Origin: an uncultured Alphaproteobacteria bacterium
Lineage (GTDB): Bacteria; Pseudomonadota; Alphaproteobacteria; Rhodobacterales; Rhodobacteraceae
Direction: 5' to 3'
Assembly: GCA_902599445.1 (NCBI GenBank)
Contig: CACKFK010000007.1
Span: forward strand, 1-64,000
DNA: 64,000 nucleotides
Positions 30,234-46,369 of the stretch are shown here, one piece after another (position 1 is the first letter of the stretch; every line of letters starts with the position of its first letter). Under the pieces are notes generated by a model, which saw only the letters and a program-made list of their open reading frames with translations, did not search any database and had not been told where the DNA came from. Position numbers and translations under genes: made by a program.

Positions 30234-31469
30234 ATGTATAACTATATTAAAGTAACCGTACTGGGATTTCTATCAGTACTGTTTCTCAGTACAGCATCTT
30301 TTTCAGCTGACCTCGTGATTACCTTTGATGATCTAAATCCGGGGCCAAAAGCTGCATTTGAAAATGCAATAGCACAATTTCAAAAAGAAAACCCTGATAT
30401 CAATGTCATTGCCAATAATGGTGACAGAGAAGAGCATAAAGCCGCTATAAGGAACTTTCTTATAGCAGATGCTCCGGATGTAACATCTTGGTATCCGGGC
30501 AACAGAATGCGGCCCTTTGTCAAAGCTGGGCTTTTTGAGGATGTTTCAGATGTTTGGGACGCAAATGGTTTTCATGAGGATCTAGCGGCCGTAAAACCAA
30601 CTATGACGATAGCTGGCAGACAGTGGGGTGTTCCTTATTCATATTACCAATGGGGAGTTTACTACAGGAAAGATATTTTTGATAAACTAGGTCTGTTTGA
30701 ACCAAATACTTGGGTCCAATTTAAATATATTTGTGATACACTCAAAAAAAATGACATCACTCCTATAACAATAGGGACTAAATATCTTTGGACTGCCGCA
30801 GGTGTTTTTGACTATATAAATCTTAGAACAAACGGCTATAAAGTTCATAATGACCTTACCGCTGGGAAGATAAAATACACTGATCCAAGGATTAAGAAAA
30901 CATTTGAATATTGGGCTGAATTGGTAAATGCTGGGTACTTCTTGGAAAACCATGCAAGCATGTCATGGCAAGATGCAGTTGTTCCCTTTGCCAATGGAGA
31001 GGCCGCAATGTATGTTATGGGTAATTTTTCTGTTGATGCTTATAAAAATGCAGGACTAACCTATGATCAAATTGATTTTTTTCCATTTCCTGAAATCACA
31101 AAAGGTGTGCCTCGTGCTGAGGAAGCCCCAGCAGATGCCTTTTTCATTCCAACGAATGCAAAGAATAAATCTGATGCAAAGAAGTGGTTAGCTTTTGTTG
31201 CTCGAGCAGACGTTCAAACGGAGTGGAATAAGACTATCGGGCAACTTCCGATAAACTCTAAAGCATCTGTGTCAGACGACAAATTCATTCAGCAGGGTTT
31301 TGAAACCTTAAACACAGCTGCCGGTCTTGCTCAGTTTTATGATCGAGATGCCGTCGCTGAAATGGCCGCTGCAGGAATGGAAGGCTTTCAAGAATTCATG
31401 ATGAAACCTGATAGACTTGATAAAATTCTAAAAAGATTAGATAAAATCCAAGCTAAGGTTTATAAATGA
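30234..31469 (+). CDS. sugar ABC transporter substrate-binding protein
   Basis: The 411-aa product has a signal peptide (cleavage near SFSADLVI) and the fold of family-1 extracellular solute-binding proteins (ITFDDLNPGPKAAFENAIAQF, GVPYSYYQWGVYYRKDIFDKLG, PFANGEAAMYVMGNF). GGAG precedes the ATG. It captures an oligosaccharide or glycoside in the periplasm. With melA at the end of the operon, an alpha-galactoside is the inferred ligand. A strong hairpin follows the stop codon. Confidence 0.9.
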   Translation: MYNYIKVTVLGFLSVLFLSTASFSADLVITFDDLNPGPKAAFENAIAQFQKENPDINVIANNGDREEHKAAIRNFLIADAPDVTSWYPGNRMRPFVKAGLFEDVSDVWDANGFHEDLAAVKPTMTIAGRQWGVPYSYYQWGVYYRKDIFDKLGLFEPNTWVQFKYICDTLKKNDITPITIGTKYLWTAAGVFDYINLRTNGYKVHNDLTAGKIKYTDPRIKKTFEYWAELVNAGYFLENHASMSWQDAVVPFANGEAAMYVMGNFSVDAYKNAGLTYDQIDFFPFPEITKGVPRAEEAPADAFFIPTNAKNKSDAKKWLAFVARADVQTEWNKTIGQLPINSKASVSDDKFIQQGFETLNTAAGLAQFYDRDAVAEMAAAGMEGFQEFMMKPDRLDKILKRLDKIQAKVYK

Positions 31470-31475
31470 TAAGAG

Positions 31476-31503
31476 TATGGGTGGGGGATACCCCACCCCA
31501 TAT
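31476..31503 (+). terminator. strong intercistronic hairpin after the binding-protein gene
   Basis: GGGTGGGG, a four-base loop, then CCCCACCC forms an 8-bp GC stem, extended by TAT/ATA across one bulged base and followed by TTTTAT. It lies 7 bp after the binding-protein stop and before the permease genes. A leaky terminator or mRNA-stabilising stem at this place is a common way to make more binding protein than permease. Termination strength cannot be judged by eye. Confidence 0.65.
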
Positions 31504-31542
31504 TTTATAATTATACTTTTTATAATTGAGTGAATTTTTGCC

Positions 31543-32457
31543 TTGAGAAGAAGTAATCATCCTAATTACTCAACCCACATTTTCGGAAAAAATAAGCTAG
31601 TTATTTCGCCATGGCTGTTTTTAATACCAGGTATAATATTCTTTCTTATTTATGTAATTGTTCCTATTTTTCAGTCGATTTGGGTATCATTTTATGAGTG
31701 GGATGGTCTTGGGCAGGCCGAATGGGTAGGATTGGCTAATTACGTAGAACTTTTAGACGACGAATATTTTTATACATCGCTAAAGAATAATTTTATTTGG
31801 CTAGTTCTTTACTTATTAGCGGTCCCTCTGGGACTTTTTATAGCATTGTTCTTAAATCAAGTCGTCTTTGGAATAAGATTTTATAAATCCTTATTCTTTT
31901 TTCCCTTTGTGATTTCACAGGTAGTAGTTGGTTTAATTTTTTCTTGGTTTTATAACCCAAACTTTGGATTATTATCTCAAATCTTTACTTCGTTAGGTTT
32001 AGAACCCATAGCAATTTTATCTGATGAAAATTTAGTTACTTATGGAATTATCTTTGCAGGACTCTGGCCGCAAGTTGCTTACTGCATGATATTGTATCTT
32101 ACTGGGCTAAGTAATGTATCACAAGATTTAATGGAAGCTGCACGGTTGGACGGAGCAAAAGGTTGGAGGATGTTATGGTACGTAGTCCTGCCTCAATTGA
32201 GGCCGGCTACTTTCATTTCTGTGGTAGTTACAATAATTGGCGCTCTGCGATCTTTCGACATGGTTGCCATAATGACTGAAGGTGGACCATATGGATCCTC
32301 AAACGTGCTTGCTTATTATATGTTTGAAACTGCATTATCTGAATACGGCTTCAGACTTGGCTACGGATCAGCAATCGCTACAGTCCTATTTTTTATAATG
32401 TTAATTTATATAACTTATTTTCTTTGGCGGTTATATAAAAATGAAAAGGAGGCATAG
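31543..32457 (+). CDS. sugar ABC transporter permease 1 (MalF/UgpA type)
   Basis: The start is TTG in the track. The 304-aa protein has six helices and the EAA loop (EAARLDGAKGWRMLWYVVLPQLRP) that contacts the ATPase. The N-terminal SPWLFLIPGIIFFLIYVIVPIFQSI helix is typical of the first CUT1 permease. It overlaps the next permease gene by 17 bases, indicating coupled translation. Confidence 0.9.
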   Translation: MRRSNHPNYSTHIFGKNKLVISPWLFLIPGIIFFLIYVIVPIFQSIWVSFYEWDGLGQAEWVGLANYVELLDDEYFYTSLKNNFIWLVLYLLAVPLGLFIALFLNQVVFGIRFYKSLFFFPFVISQVVVGLIFSWFYNPNFGLLSQIFTSLGLEPIAILSDENLVTYGIIFAGLWPQVAYCMILYLTGLSNVSQDLMEAARLDGAKGWRMLWYVVLPQLRPATFISVVVTIIGALRSFDMVAIMTEGGPYGSSNVLAYYMFETALSEYGFRLGYGSAIATVLFFIMLIYITYFLWRLYKNEKEA

Positions 32458-33313
32458 TAAGTTGTTTCCTAAACCAATAGCTGCTAGATCTAGAACTTAT
32501 CAACGTTTGTATAAAATAGCTTTGCCAATAGCTTTACTCATCTGGCTTTTACCATTGTTAGCAATTTTCATGACCTCCATAAGGTCTTCAGTAGATATCA
32601 ATACTGGAAATGTTTTTGGCTGGCCTTCTCAATTTTTATTAATCGAAAACTACACAGAGGTTTTCAACAGATCCCAAGCTATTCTATATTTAAAGAACTC
32701 TTTTATGATAACTATTCCTACTGTTTTGCTATCAGTTTCTTTGGCATGTTTGGCTGGTTATGCTCTCGCAATTTACCGTTTTAGATGGTCGCTTCCAATT
32801 TTTTTTCTATTTGTAGCCGGAAATTTTGTTCCATTTCAAATACTAATGATACCTGTTAGAGACATGTCGGTATCAACCGGGTTGTATAATACAATCTTAG
32901 GCCAAGTACTATTTCATGCCGCATTTCAAACGGGGTTTTGCACCTTTTTCATGAGGAATTTTATTAGGGCACTCCCTTTTGAACTAATTGAAAGTGGCCG
33001 TATAGAGGGAGTAGGGGAGATCAAAATATTCTTATTTATTGTAGTTCCTTTAGTAAGACCGGCACTAGCTGCTTTATCTGTCCTGATCTTTACTTTCGTA
33101 TGGAATGACTTTTTCTGGGCAACTGTATTAACACAAGGTGAAAGTGTTAAACCTATTACTGCAGGTGTTAGATCTTTGAATGGACAATATGTTAATAATT
33201 GGCATTTAGTATCTGCGGCGTCTTTAATAGCAGCTATCCCACCAGTAGCTATGTTCTTTCTAATGCAAAAGCACTTCATAGCTGGCCTTACTCTTGGTTC
33301 CGTAAAGCAATAA
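32441..33313 (+). CDS. sugar ABC transporter permease 2 (MalG/UgpE type)
   Basis: The 290-aa protein has six helices and the EAA loop in the form LIESGRIEGVGEIKIFLFIVVPLVRP, followed by the typical C-terminal FVWNDFFWATVLTQGE. It pairs with the preceding permease in the inner membrane. Its start lies inside the end of that gene, near an AAAAGGAGG site. melA begins 12 bp downstream. Confidence 0.9.
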   Translation: MKRRHSKLFPKPIAARSRTYQRLYKIALPIALLIWLLPLLAIFMTSIRSSVDINTGNVFGWPSQFLLIENYTEVFNRSQAILYLKNSFMITIPTVLLSVSLACLAGYALAIYRFRWSLPIFFLFVAGNFVPFQILMIPVRDMSVSTGLYNTILGQVLFHAAFQTGFCTFFMRNFIRALPFELIESGRIEGVGEIKIFLFIVVPLVRPALAALSVLIFTFVWNDFFWATVLTQGESVKPITAGVRSLNGQYVNNWHLVSAASLIAAIPPVAMFFLMQKHFIAGLTLGSVKQ

Positions 33314-33325
33314 TAATATGGTAAA

Positions 33326-34669
33326 ATGAGCAAAAAAATAGTTTTTATAGGGGCAGGATCTACCATTTTCATGAAAAACATCATTGGGGATATTTTAAAG
33401 TTTCCTGCGATTAGCAGCTCTTCTTTTGCGCTCATGGACATTGATGAAAAGCGGCTCTCAGAGTCAGAAGCTGTGGCCAAGGAGTTAATAGCTCAATCAA
33501 AGAGTAGTGCAACCGTTCAAACATTTAAAGATCAAAAAAATGCCTTACAAAATGCTGATTTCGTAGTTGTAGCTTTTCAAATTGGTGGTTATCAGCCATG
33601 TACTGTAACTGATTTTGAAATTCCCAAGAAGTATAACTTACAGCAAACCATCGGTGATACCTTAGGAATTGGTGGAATAATGCGTGGTTTGCGAACTGTT
33701 CCCTATCTGTGGGCCTTGTGTGAGGACATGCTATCCGTCTGCCCTGATGCTATTCTTCTCCAATATGTTAATCCGATGGCAATCAATACCTGGGCGATAG
33801 GAGCCAAGTATCCTGCAATTAAACAGATCGGACTTTGTCATTCTGTGCAAGGCACACTAAATGAGTTAGCTAGAGACCTTGGCACAGATATTACAAAAAT
33901 ACACTACCAAGTAGCCGGAATAAACCATCTCGCTTTCTTTTTGGAATTAAAGGAATTGCAATCTGATGGAACATATAAAGATCTTTATCCTATTTTAAAG
34001 ATCTTAGGCAAGAAAGGAAATACTTCTGCTAATACCGGTGCAAACGAGAGATGCCCCAATTTTGTTAGATATAAATTTTTAGAGCATTTTGGGTATTTTG
34101 TGACTGAGTCTTCCGAACACTTTGCAGAGTACGTGCCTTGGTTCATTAAATCACATAAACCTGACTTAATTGATCACTTTAAGATCCCTTTAGACGAATA
34201 TCCAAAACGTTGCCAAGAACAAATTGCTGAATGGAAGAATCTAACGACGGGTATAATCAATAATGTTCCTCCTGAACATACTAAAAGTCACGAATATGCC
34301 GCTGATATTATTAATTCAGTTTCTTCAGGAGTCCCATGTACCATTTATGGGAATGTTATCAACAACGGTTACATTGAAGGATTGCCATATAATGCAGCTG
34401 TTGAAGTACCATGCCTCATCGATGGGGCAGGGGTTCATCCGCAAAGAACATTAAATATTCCACCGCATCTACTAGCACTAATTCGTACTAACATTAATGT
34501 ACAGGAACTTACTGTACTCTCGTTGCTAAATGAGGACATAGAAAGCGTCTACCATGCTGCAATGTTGGACCCTCATACTGGGGCAGAGTTAGATTTAGAT
34601 CAAATTAAAAGTTTGGTAAATGAATTAATCCGTGAGCATGGAGAATGGATGCCCTCTTGGCTCCAATGA
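33326..34669 (+). CDS. melA: alpha-galactosidase, glycoside hydrolase family 4
   Basis: The 447-aa product matches E. coli MelA nearly end to end: the NAD-binding start IVFIGAGSTIF, then FVVVAFQIGGYQPCTVTDFE, DTLGIGGIMRGLRTVP, the metal-binding GLCHSVQGT and AGINHLAFFLEL, and the SSEHFAEYVPWFIK segment. GH4 enzymes use NAD and a divalent metal to cleave alpha-galactosides by an oxidation-elimination route in the cytoplasm. It follows the ABC permeases in one operon, so it presumably hydrolyses the imported glycoside, for example melibiose-type sugars or an algal galactosylglycerol. The natural substrate is inferred only. Confidence 0.92.
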   Translation: MSKKIVFIGAGSTIFMKNIIGDILKFPAISSSSFALMDIDEKRLSESEAVAKELIAQSKSSATVQTFKDQKNALQNADFVVVAFQIGGYQPCTVTDFEIPKKYNLQQTIGDTLGIGGIMRGLRTVPYLWALCEDMLSVCPDAILLQYVNPMAINTWAIGAKYPAIKQIGLCHSVQGTLNELARDLGTDITKIHYQVAGINHLAFFLELKELQSDGTYKDLYPILKILGKKGNTSANTGANERCPNFVRYKFLEHFGYFVTESSEHFAEYVPWFIKSHKPDLIDHFKIPLDEYPKRCQEQIAEWKNLTTGIINNVPPEHTKSHEYAADIINSVSSGVPCTIYGNVINNGYIEGLPYNAAVEVPCLIDGAGVHPQRTLNIPPHLLALIRTNINVQELTVLSLLNEDIESVYHAAMLDPHTGAELDLDQIKSLVNELIREHGEWMPSWLQ

Positions 34670-35414: not shown

Positions 35415-37025
35415 TTATTTTCCTAAGATTCCTACCCGTATATCATAATCGACAGCTAAGGCGTATTCTGGATCGTCATCACTATCAATCATAAGTTGAC
35501 CAGTGCGAGTGAGTAGGTGATGGCAATCTCTGCTAAGATGGCGAAGTTTAATTTTTCTACCAGATTTTTCGTACCTTTCTGCAATATCTTCTATAGCTTT
35601 TAAGGCTGATTGATCTACTACCTTGGAGTTGGCAAAATCTAAAATTACTGTCTCTGGATCTAGCATTGGGTCAAATAGTTCTAAAAAACTCTCAACAGAT
35701 CCAAAGAATAACGGGCCGTCAATCTCGTACACTTTGGCTCCCTTTTCTGTTGTAGACTCACGACCTACAGCGTGAATACGGCTTGCTGAATTCCATGCAA
35801 ATACCAAAGCTGATACAATGACACCGACTACAACAGCAACCGCAAGGTCCTCAGCCACAGTTACGACTGTTACTAGAATAATTACTAAAGCGTCTGATTT
35901 AGGCACTTTAGTAAGCAGCCTAAGCGAATTCCAAGCAAAGGTTCCTATTACTACCATGAACATTACACCTACTAGAGCAGCTACGGGAATCATTTCAATT
36001 AATGATGAACCATAAAGAATAAAAAATAAGAGAGCTAAAGCGCCGATAATAGCTGAAATTCTTGTTCTGCCTCCTGATTTTACATTAATCATGGATTGAC
36101 CAATCATAGCACATCCTCCCATGCCTCCAAAAAAACCAGTTACTGTGTTTGCAGCTCCTTGAGCAAGACACTCCTGACTTGCTCCACCTCTTTTGCCAGT
36201 TATTTCACCGACAAGATTTAGTGTTAACAAACTTTCTATTAGGCCTATCATAGCTAGAATTAATGCATAAGGCGCTATAATCAGCAGAGTATCGAGTTCA
36301 TAAGGTATTATGGGAATATGAAAGTCTGGAAGGTCTCCTGAAATGCTAGCAAGATCTCCAACAACTGGAACTCCAACATCAAAGTAAATAACAAATGCCG
36401 TTACTAATATGATCGCTGTTAACGGCCCTGGAATTATCTTGGTGACCTGGGGGGTGCCCCATATTATGACCATTGTTATTCCTACAAGGAGTATGGAGAA
36501 GGCCATCATATCGCCGGTCATCCAGTGCAACTCACCCATTTGATCCATTGTTTGAAATTGTCTTACTTGAGCTAAACCAATAACTATTGCTAGTCCATTT
36601 ACAAAACCCAGCATGACGGGCTGCGGAACTATGCGAATGAACTTTCCTAATTTAAATAAACCGGCCAAAAGTTGTAAAATACCCATAAGTATTACGGTAG
36701 CAAAAAGATACTCGACTCCGTAATCTTCAACTAAAGAAATCATTACAACAGCCAATGCACCCGTTGCTCCAGAAATCATACCAGGTCGACCTCCAAATAC
36801 TGCTGTTATCAGACCAACGATAAATGCAGCATAGAGCCCAAATAGCGGCGGAACTCCTGCAACAAAGGCGAATGCAACTGCTTCTGGGACCAAAGCTATT
36901 GCAACTGTTACACCAGCAAGAACCTCCGTCTTAAACAAGGAGGCCGAATAACCTTTATTTTCAGGTGAATTAGAAGTTCCAAGATTAAAGGTTTTTGCAA
37001 ACCCTGAGATAGTTGTTTTTAACAA
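35415..37025 (-). CDS. SulP-family anion transporter with STAS domain
   Basis: The start is TTG, supported by AAGGA 8 bp upstream. The 536-aa protein has 10-12 helices with SulP landmarks (VAIALVPEAVAFAFVAGVPPLFGLYAAF near the N-terminus, FGGMGGCAMIGQSMINVKSGGRTR in the middle). A cytoplasmic STAS domain from about residue 430 (VILDFANSKVVDQSALKAIEDIAERY) completes it. Members move sulfate, bicarbonate or dicarboxylates. This subgroup (short, GGMGG...NVKSGG) is often found as a putative bicarbonate or sulfate importer; I cannot choose. It is transcribed alone. Confidence 0.85.
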   Translation of the reverse strand: MLKTTISGFAKTFNLGTSNSPENKGYSASLFKTEVLAGVTVAIALVPEAVAFAFVAGVPPLFGLYAAFIVGLITAVFGGRPGMISGATGALAVVMISLVEDYGVEYLFATVILMGILQLLAGLFKLGKFIRIVPQPVMLGFVNGLAIVIGLAQVRQFQTMDQMGELHWMTGDMMAFSILLVGITMVIIWGTPQVTKIIPGPLTAIILVTAFVIYFDVGVPVVGDLASISGDLPDFHIPIIPYELDTLLIIAPYALILAMIGLIESLLTLNLVGEITGKRGGASQECLAQGAANTVTGFFGGMGGCAMIGQSMINVKSGGRTRISAIIGALALLFFILYGSSLIEMIPVAALVGVMFMVVIGTFAWNSLRLLTKVPKSDALVIILVTVVTVAEDLAVAVVVGVIVSALVFAWNSASRIHAVGRESTTEKGAKVYEIDGPLFFGSVESFLELFDPMLDPETVILDFANSKVVDQSALKAIEDIAERYEKSGRKIKLRHLSRDCHHLLTRTGQLMIDSDDDPEYALAVDYDIRVGILGK

Positions 37026-38421: not shown

Positions 38422-39069
38422 ATGAGCTTGGCTCATGAAAATAAAACAAAGATGATAAAAGAACTTGTTCTGAAAATCATAATCTTTCTTAAGCAAAACT
38501 CAAGTTCCTTAGAGAAAAAAAAGATTTTAGATTTAATTACTCTTATTAATCTGGATCAACAAAATACCAACTATCAAAAATCAAACAAGCCACCTAAATC
38601 TGAATCTATTAAAGACGCATTGTCATCAATACATTGTGATAAGCTACTCCCCATTAAGAACGCAATTGCCTTGACCTTAAACCAACTGCAGTGGAATATT
38701 GACGATGGAGAATTTTATAGAAAAAATTCTAACATTGGGCATAATTACTTGAACGGTAATATGAATACAGAGTTAATAGGGCCGAAAAAGGGTTTTTTTA
38801 AGTCTAAAGAATTACGATTGGGTTTATTTCTTTTACAATCAAATATTTTTTATAAAGATCATTACCATGCATCTCCTGAACTTTATTTAAACTTAACAAA
38901 CGGTACAAAATGGAGGTTTAAAGGTTCAGCTTGGAGGCTAAAAAAAGCTGGGAGTATAGTTTTTAATCCTCCTTTTAGGTCTCACGCTATGTTAGTGGCT
39001 GACATACCTTTCCTATCAGTTTGGTGCTGGCCACATAGTTCTAGTGGCAAGTGCGTCTTAACATATTGA
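38422..39069 (+). CDS. DddQ-like cupin, putative dimethylsulfoniopropionate (DMSP) lyase
   Basis: I use the ATG just after GGGAGAGG; a GTG three bases earlier is the track start. The 215-aa product has a helical N-terminal half and a C-terminal cupin. From memory of DddQ structures, the metal ligands are H-x3-E-x-Y plus a His about 32 residues later, with a catalytic Tyr five residues before the first His. Here Y145, H150, E154, Y156 and H189 (track numbering) fit that spacing, inside YKDHYHASPELY and FRSHAM. GPKKGFFKSKELRLGLFLLQ before the cupin is also family-like. It would split DMSP into acrylate and dimethyl sulfide. No acrylate-utilisation genes are adjacent, so activity is inferred. 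Confidence 0.62.
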   Translation: MSLAHENKTKMIKELVLKIIIFLKQNSSSLEKKKILDLITLINLDQQNTNYQKSNKPPKSESIKDALSSIHCDKLLPIKNAIALTLNQLQWNIDDGEFYRKNSNIGHNYLNGNMNTELIGPKKGFFKSKELRLGLFLLQSNIFYKDHYHASPELYLNLTNGTKWRFKGSAWRLKKAGSIVFNPPFRSHAMLVADIPFLSVWCWPHSSSGKCVLTY

Positions 39070-45001: not shown

Positions 45002-46123
45002 TTAAATACGTTCAATTTCCATTACGATGTGCACATAATCCATTGAATGAACACTAGGATTGCGAGCAACCTCATTTTCATAGTTTTGGTAAAAAGATTC
45101 TATGATGTGGTCAGTTTGTTGGCGTGTACGGCCTTTTATAGCACTTCGGAAAACAGTTTCTGACCAACTTCTAATTGTTGGTATAAATTCTTTTGCAAAC
45201 TCAGTTGGAGTTAAGGTGTTTTTGTTTTCCTCAAATTGCTGTTGGTAAGGACATTTTGTTAACATTGTAAAGCATTTGTTAAGCTTAAGTCCTATTTGGT
45301 TTGCAAGACAATCATGTCCAAGAAATGGCCTGCTAAACTCCTCAATAGTTCGATAATGCTGAGGGAAGGTAGCAGAGATAAACTCCTCTTTCGTAATCAT
45401 GCCATTGTCCAAATGATCTCTCCAATGCCTATGAAAACTTTCAAACATTGAATTACCACCGGTATTACCGAGATATCTTCCATTTTCATCAATTCCAAAG
45501 TTCACACAGATAAACCGACCACCAGGTTTTAGTTCGTTCGCTCTAGCACATAAAATAGCCTCCCAATCCTTGAGAGCCTGCCTTTTGAACTTCTCCTTCT
45601 CCAGTTTGGAAGCTCCAACCATATGGACATGATCCAATATTTGACAGGGCTTCTCGGAGACATAATGCATCGCCGTAGCCGAAAAACCTAGCGAAAGTGT
45701 TCCACTCGTTACTAGTTGACGATGGAACCCTGTTCCGCAAGCATGAACATATACATTCTCAAACTCTTCTTGATAGGCTAAATTAACATTTTCACCCATA
45801 CCTTGCATAGTTCTAAAAAGAGTTGAAAAATCATTCGATGCTAAATCTGTATAAATTATCTCTACAGGACGTTGGTCTCCTCCTGCTCTAATGGATTTAA
45901 TTAAGTTATACCAAAGTTCCTGACTGGTGCCGCCATCGGCAGAACCAAAATCAGCAAAGCGCAAAAAATTAGACTTACTGATCTTACTGAACGCATCTGT
46001 GATTAGGTGCTGCAAACTGTCGATTGCAATTTTTGCACCAATAGTTTTTTTGGAGTAATACCCGGCTCCTTTCATTGATAATTCAGACTGAGTGTTTAAA
46101 TAACTCTTCTTTATATCAACCAT
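45002..46123 (-). CDS. SABATH-like SAM-dependent carboxyl methyltransferase
   Basis: The track opens at a TTG; the ATG at 46123, with AAGGAA 5 bp upstream, is the better start and gives MVDIKKSYLN. The 373-aa protein resembles plant-type SABATH methyltransferases: an N-terminal MKGAGYYSKK, the SAM site FADFGSADGGTSQELW, YTDLASNDFSTLFRTM, GTGFHRQLVTSGTLSLGFSATAMHYVSE and a C-terminal helical cap. Known members methylate carboxyl groups of small acids such as salicylate, jasmonate or gibberellins. A bacterial substrate is unknown. It is soluble and likely cytoplasmic. Confidence 0.72.
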   Translation of the reverse strand: MVDIKKSYLNTQSELSMKGAGYYSKKTIGAKIAIDSLQHLITDAFSKISKSNFLRFADFGSADGGTSQELWYNLIKSIRAGGDQRPVEIIYTDLASNDFSTLFRTMQGMGENVNLAYQEEFENVYVHACGTGFHRQLVTSGTLSLGFSATAMHYVSEKPCQILDHVHMVGASKLEKEKFKRQALKDWEAILCARANELKPGGRFICVNFGIDENGRYLGNTGGNSMFESFHRHWRDHLDNGMITKEEFISATFPQHYRTIEEFSRPFLGHDCLANQIGLKLNKCFTMLTKCPYQQQFEENKNTLTPTEFAKEFIPTIRSWSETVFRSAIKGRTRQQTDHIIESFYQNYENEVARNPSVHSMDYVHIVMEIERI

Positions 46124-46369
46124 TTTATTTCCTTCAAACAATCAACAACATTTCAATCATGTTCTCTTTACATGATATATCAAAAAAGAGAAGCGAGACT
46201 TATAAAAATGAAATGTTTTTCAACCCCTCTTTTGCAGTGATACCAGGCTAGATTTTGATTATCAGGCATGAAGCCTATATTTATAATCAGGGGTCGTTTC
46301 AACCTATTTTATTTCAGCCCGAAGGCTACGAATTACAGTGGCGATATGACCTTTTGTAGTAAGTTTTCC

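Follow-up and report, generated by a model that had tools for sequence, protein, structure and literature searches.

Does a cupin that keeps every catalytic residue of DddQ, a lyase of dimethylsulfoniopropionate (DMSP), also act on DMSP? The question was raised by a gene lying in a 64,000-nucleotide stretch of DNA (the window) of contig CACKFK010000007.1, from an uncultured member of the Rhodobacteraceae, whose product had been described in an initial annotation as a divergent DddQ-type enzyme converting DMSP to acrylate and dimethyl sulfide (DMS). With moderate confidence we favour the reading that the protein is an onium lyase of DddQ-type chemistry with a substrate beyond DMSP alone, because it stands apart from DddQ in the family tree, related clades occur in betaine-type gene contexts, the genus possesses a separate DddQ and the acryloyl-CoA reductase AcuI is missing from the genus. 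The earlier interpretation was therefore partly supported, in that the family is right and the chemistry probably so, but membership of DddQ fails.

Identity of the gene

The open reading frame (Table 1) begins with ATG, contains no internal stops and is preceded, just 5' of the start, by GAGGAAAGAGGGAGAGG, which is plausible as its ribosome-binding site; a scan of the locus for promoters and terminators gave scores no higher than for shuffled sequence. In a search against Pfam the product matched PF16867 (DMSP_lyase) with E = 2.3e-22 and 79.9 bits (the gathering cut-off being 27 bits), residues 46-198 corresponding to positions 16-161 of the 162 in the profile. This E-value excludes a chance motif as the source of the cupin pattern. 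No named family was matched in the NCBIfam profile search. The solved structures closest by sequence were all DddQ, at E about 1e-5, or 4e-8 when an orthologue profile was used.

The host genome (G000) is a metagenome-assembled genome (MAG) of 1.7 Mb, 60% complete, of a Rhodobacteraceae group. Orthologues of the cupin, 48-57% identical, were found in five of the 11 other genomes of the genus (G002, G003, G006, G008 and G010) and in the MAGs L004 and L005, the locus of G318 being that of L005 and counted once. The nonsynonymous rate (dN) was lower than the synonymous rate (dS) for every orthologue pair with estimable dS; the orthologues are under purifying selection, by which a reading as a pseudogene was rejected, and the frame is a genuine gene.

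Active site and fold

The residues reported to be essential for DddQ from R. lacuscaerulensis are Tyr120, His123, His125, Glu129, Tyr131 and His163 (PMC4437653), and all six are present in the window cupin as Tyr144, His147, His149, Glu153, Tyr155 and His188. The annotated pattern Y-x4-H-x3-E-x-Y was confirmed exactly (Tyr144-x4-His149-x3-Glu153-x-Tyr155), as was a histidine 33 residues past the last tyrosine (His188 relative to Tyr155); the claim of a complete DddQ-type catalytic set also stands and extends to His147, at the DddQ His123 position, which had not been listed. The six residues are unvarying across the orthologue alignment (seven sequences). They are likewise complete in 53 of the 59 PF16867 proteins compared, including those of Rhizobium, Shinella, Mesorhizobium and Burkholderia; among the remaining six, Arg occupies the His123 position in five (four group-B paralogues and L011) and Lys replaces Glu in L019. 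Since the set is found so widely, soil rhizobia included, the six-residue motif marks the family and not the substrate. A second PF16867 paralogue occurs in the genome of the window (L002, at G000:C14:15451-15738); in the related proteins of G003, G004 and G005 the DddQ His123 position is taken by Arg, and paralogues of this type would therefore have an altered active site.

An AlphaFold2 model built on a three-sequence alignment (predicted template modelling (TM) score 0.70, mean predicted local distance difference test score 67, with a weak stretch at 92-128) places N-terminal helices before a C-terminal cupin barrel, as in DddQ, and this predicted architecture agrees with the family-like N-terminal half noted in the annotation. 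When the model was compared with the PDB by Foldseek, the six best matches were all DddQ and covered the whole length (207-212 aligned columns, TM 0.58-0.72), whereas other cupins, including DddK (5tfz, 6a55), matched mostly over the barrel alone.

From homology we infer lyase chemistry for the window cupin. A divalent metal would be held by His147, His149, Glu153 and His188 and would bind the carboxylate of the substrate; Tyr155, aided by Tyr144, would remove the alpha proton, and the beta onium group would depart to give an acrylate-type product. Rather than being confined to DMSP, the enzyme probably acts on a related onium carboxylate such as dimethylsulfoxonium propionate (DMSOP), beta-alanine betaine or another betaine.

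Position in the family tree

The maximum likelihood tree was based on 128 columns, with DddW, DddK, DddY and DddU left out. The window cupin and its seven orthologues form a clade of their own (clade A, n = 8, support 96/93), which is joined at 97/89 with clade Aext, consisting of proteins from Phaeobacter, Leisingera and G614, and with the Rieske-linked clade R; clade H joins next at 95/82, and DddQ lies apart. The signature YxDHxHxxPExY is present in all three joined clades, with a 'PELY'-type form of motif 1 common to them. The DddQ structures group with five proteins of the genus at 87/89, and one genus protein of this clade matches 4b29 at 6e-26. A single clade of the window group and DddQ was rejected by the approximately unbiased (AU) test (p = 0.009), so that tree and test together rule out DddQ membership. 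The DddL clade, identified via an annotated relative, is separate at 100/100 and does not contain the window cupin; a joint clade with DddL is unsupported by the tree, yet it was not rejected by the AU test (p = 0.12). The suggestion of a divergent and perhaps new branch is thus borne out by clade A, while a grouping with DddQ or DddL is not.

The window cupin shares with DddQ (4la2, 4b29, 5cu1) the Pfam family, the six active-site residues and a helical N-terminal part preceding the cupin fold, but the identity in structural alignment is 16-19%, the 'EExY' of DddQ is replaced by 'PELY', and 'RYGWFDLIGP' by 'NGNMNAELIGP'. DddL belongs to the same family and has the same residue set, but is one residue longer from the second His to Glu. 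The DddQ relatives are separate genes within the same genus: G003 encodes a group-A cupin, a DddQ and a third paralogue, the first two 8 kb apart on the same contig. As the genus has a genuine DddQ as a distinct gene, DMSP cleavage need not be the task of the group-A cupin.

Gene contexts of related clades and the acrylate route

The closest annotated full-length relatives are the DMSP lyase-like (DLL) proteins of Phaeobacter and Leisingera plasmids (WP_058277181.1, WP_264214079.1), which are about 28-31% identical to the window cupin and contain the same 'APELYLNL'. In the Phaeobacter operon the DLL gene stands with genes for an acyl-CoA ligase, a 3-hydroxyacyl-CoA dehydrogenase and a thiolase, with a betaine/choline-type ATP-binding cassette (ABC) transporter nearby, and the Leisingera locus has the same four genes; unlike the window locus, these operons include no hydroxylase. 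A Phaeobacter inhibens plasmid operon with these four genes and a betaine/choline-type ABC transporter close by (L117:6367-11994), of which near-identical copies occur in G078 and G107, looks like a beta-oxidation of an onium acid with a final elimination.

The Rieske-linked sister clade (Fuscovulum; a Mesorhizobium plasmid) resembles the window locus in having an oxygenase adjacent to the DLL gene, but it is usually accompanied by Rieske oxygenases and a polyamine-type ABC transporter, as at the Fuscovulum locus with two such oxygenases, and the window locus lacks these. In the Mesorhizobium plasmid the oxygenase upstream of the DLL gene is an FA_hydroxylase (56% identical), of the superfamily also found beside the window cupin; that locus (L119:3033-7498) comprises the FA_hydroxylase, a PanB-like protein, a 2Fe-2S protein, a ferredoxin-reductase-type enzyme and the DLL cupin. 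Near the rhizobial and Burkholderia members of clade H are ABC transporters for betaine and proline, together with demethylase-type enzymes of the flavin or Rieske kind, and the PF16867 genes of Rhizobium, Shinella and Burkholderia adjoin glycine-betaine transporters, flavin/Rieske demethylase-type enzymes or electron-transfer flavoproteins.

AcuI, which we take to be covered by TIGR02823, scored above cut-off in 56 of 61 Rhodobacteraceae genomes and in none of the 12 genomes of the genus; it was also under cut-off in the small genome G068. Looking for it within 1.5 kb on either side of DddL loci did not provide a usable control, and the family-wide search was taken instead; in G086 a DddL-type gene directly adjoins AcuI. 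The absence of AcuI is not decisive, because species of the genus that bear DddQ lack it as well, though it weighs against the usual acrylate route.

The neighbouring hydroxylase

The gene 113 bp upstream of the cupin, on the shared strand, encodes an FA_hydroxylase (Table 1). At every orthologous locus the cupin has a gene of this superfamily no more than a few genes away: it is immediately upstream in G000 and G003, and separated by one to three genes in G002, G006, G008, L004 and L005, where the G006 copy is frame-broken and the copies of L004 and L005 lie on the other strand. In G010 (L077:5905-6075) it is a 57-residue remnant, 86% identical, and the cupin is intact. The contigs of G001, G004 and G011 end at the hydroxylase or the adjoining transporter, so that the presence of the cupin is not judgeable there. 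The hydroxylases belong to two divergent subfamilies, 33-40% alike, that of the window being 80% alike to that of G003, and those of G002, G008, L004 and L005 32-37% like that of the window. A family-wide pairing was not seen, the other FA_hydroxylases of Rhodobacteraceae lying far from PF16867 genes among the listed hits inspected by eye.

Table 1. Features of the cupin locus in the window
Feature	Position	Strand	Basis
PF16867 (DMSP_lyase) cupin, 215 aa	38422..39069	+	Pfam match, structure model, orthologues
Cupin motif 1, Tyr144 ... His147-x-His149-x3-Glu153-x-Tyr155 (YKDHYHASPELY)	38851..38886	+	alignment
His188, cupin motif 2 metal ligand (DddQ His163 position)	38983..38985	+	alignment; PMC4437653 for the DddQ residue
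FA_hydroxylase (sterol desaturase superfamily, PF04116) membrane di-iron hydroxylase, 335 aa	37298..38305	+	Pfam E=1.9e-20, His boxes, synteny
SulP-type anion permease with STAS domain	35415..37025	-	PF00916 and PF01740

A functional link between hydroxylase and cupin is something that we infer, since its basis is conserved proximity and such hydroxylases are common elsewhere, away from DLL genes. On that basis the two probably share one pathway, in which the hydroxylase would prepare the substrate or process the product. It is tempting to speculate, although we consider it doubtful, that the two enzymes constitute an oxygenase-lyase module acting on an onium zwitterion. Such a module may have come together on more than one occasion, around different hydroxylases, and would parallel the pairing with Rieske oxygenases seen in the sister clade; in a special form, DMSP would be oxidised to DMSOP, which would then be cleaved to dimethyl sulfoxide (DMSO) and acrylate. 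Literature searches on hydroxylases paired with DddQ, on DLL cupins, on stachydrine and on beta-alanine betaine returned nothing relevant.

The SulP-type permease is divergently oriented to the hydroxylase, recurs in G003 and is absent at the remaining orthologous loci; an AEC-type transporter is found near the cupin at the orthologous loci, G000 and G003 excepted. Further upstream in the window (30234-34669, + strand), sugar-type ABC transporter genes precede one for a family 4 glycosyl hydrolase, a neighbourhood kept in G003, and downstream (45002-46141, - strand) there is a SABATH-type carboxyl methyltransferase (PF03492) whose G003 homologue adjoins dddQ.

Assignment of function

The cupin may possibly be a genuine lyase of DMSP or DMSOP, with the cleavage of DMSP to acrylate and DMS, or of DMSOP to acrylate and DMSO, as its main task. 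The full and invariant set of DddQ residues, the modelled match to the DddQ fold along the full length, the many DMSP users in the Rhodobacteraceae and the high divergence of cupin DMSP lyases among themselves all agree with this, and every cupin DMSP lyase tested cleaves DMSOP too (PMC10686828). However, the residue set is family-wide and extends to soil bacteria, the window cupin is outside the DddQ clade and ungrouped with DddL, a real DddQ coexists with it in G003, the genus is without AcuI, and the sister clades are found in betaine-type contexts. A non-lyase role as an isomerase, sensor or binding protein, with the metal site kept for a different chemistry, appears unlikely: cupins with similar motifs catalyse many reactions, phosphoglucose isomerases were also matched over the barrel by Foldseek, and the functions of many PF16867 members have yet to be tested, but both tyrosines, which are highly conserved in cupin DMSP lyases and not in other cupins (PMC5395565), are retained. 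Moreover, structural matches other than DddQ span the barrel only. That the protein belongs to DddU, a cupin DMSP lyase reported in 2023 for Rhodobacterales relatives, is most improbable, as DddU is reportedly less than 15% identical to DddQ, to which the window cupin is detectably similar.

The call as a DddQ-type DMSP lyase does not hold, as the motif is non-discriminating in the family, the protein lies outside DddQ, the nearest contexts are of betaine, Rieske and acyl-CoA type, and AcuI is lacking. The preferred reading, an onium lyase with a substrate beyond DMSP alone, has points weighing against it in turn. The absence of AcuI leaves acrylate formation possible, as the DddQ carriers of the genus share it; FA_hydroxylases are common in Rhodobacteraceae, and the hydroxylase and cupin are not strictly dependent, since G010 keeps the cupin with a remnant hydroxylase; no protein of clade A, Aext or R has a substrate known to us; and DMSP cleavage may occur as a lesser role, because DMSP lyases accept close analogues. 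On present sequence grounds the cupin should not carry the name of a DMS-producing lyase.

Significance

Surveys of DMS production may score matches to PF16867 or to the cupin motif as DMSP lyases, and in the case of the window this motif fails to separate DddQ from betaine-linked relatives. The data herein presented draw attention to a clade of small-genome Rhodobacteraceae for which a single purified protein could reveal the substrate, and the link to the hydroxylase, if true, would suggest that onium compounds are handled by a hitherto unknown route.
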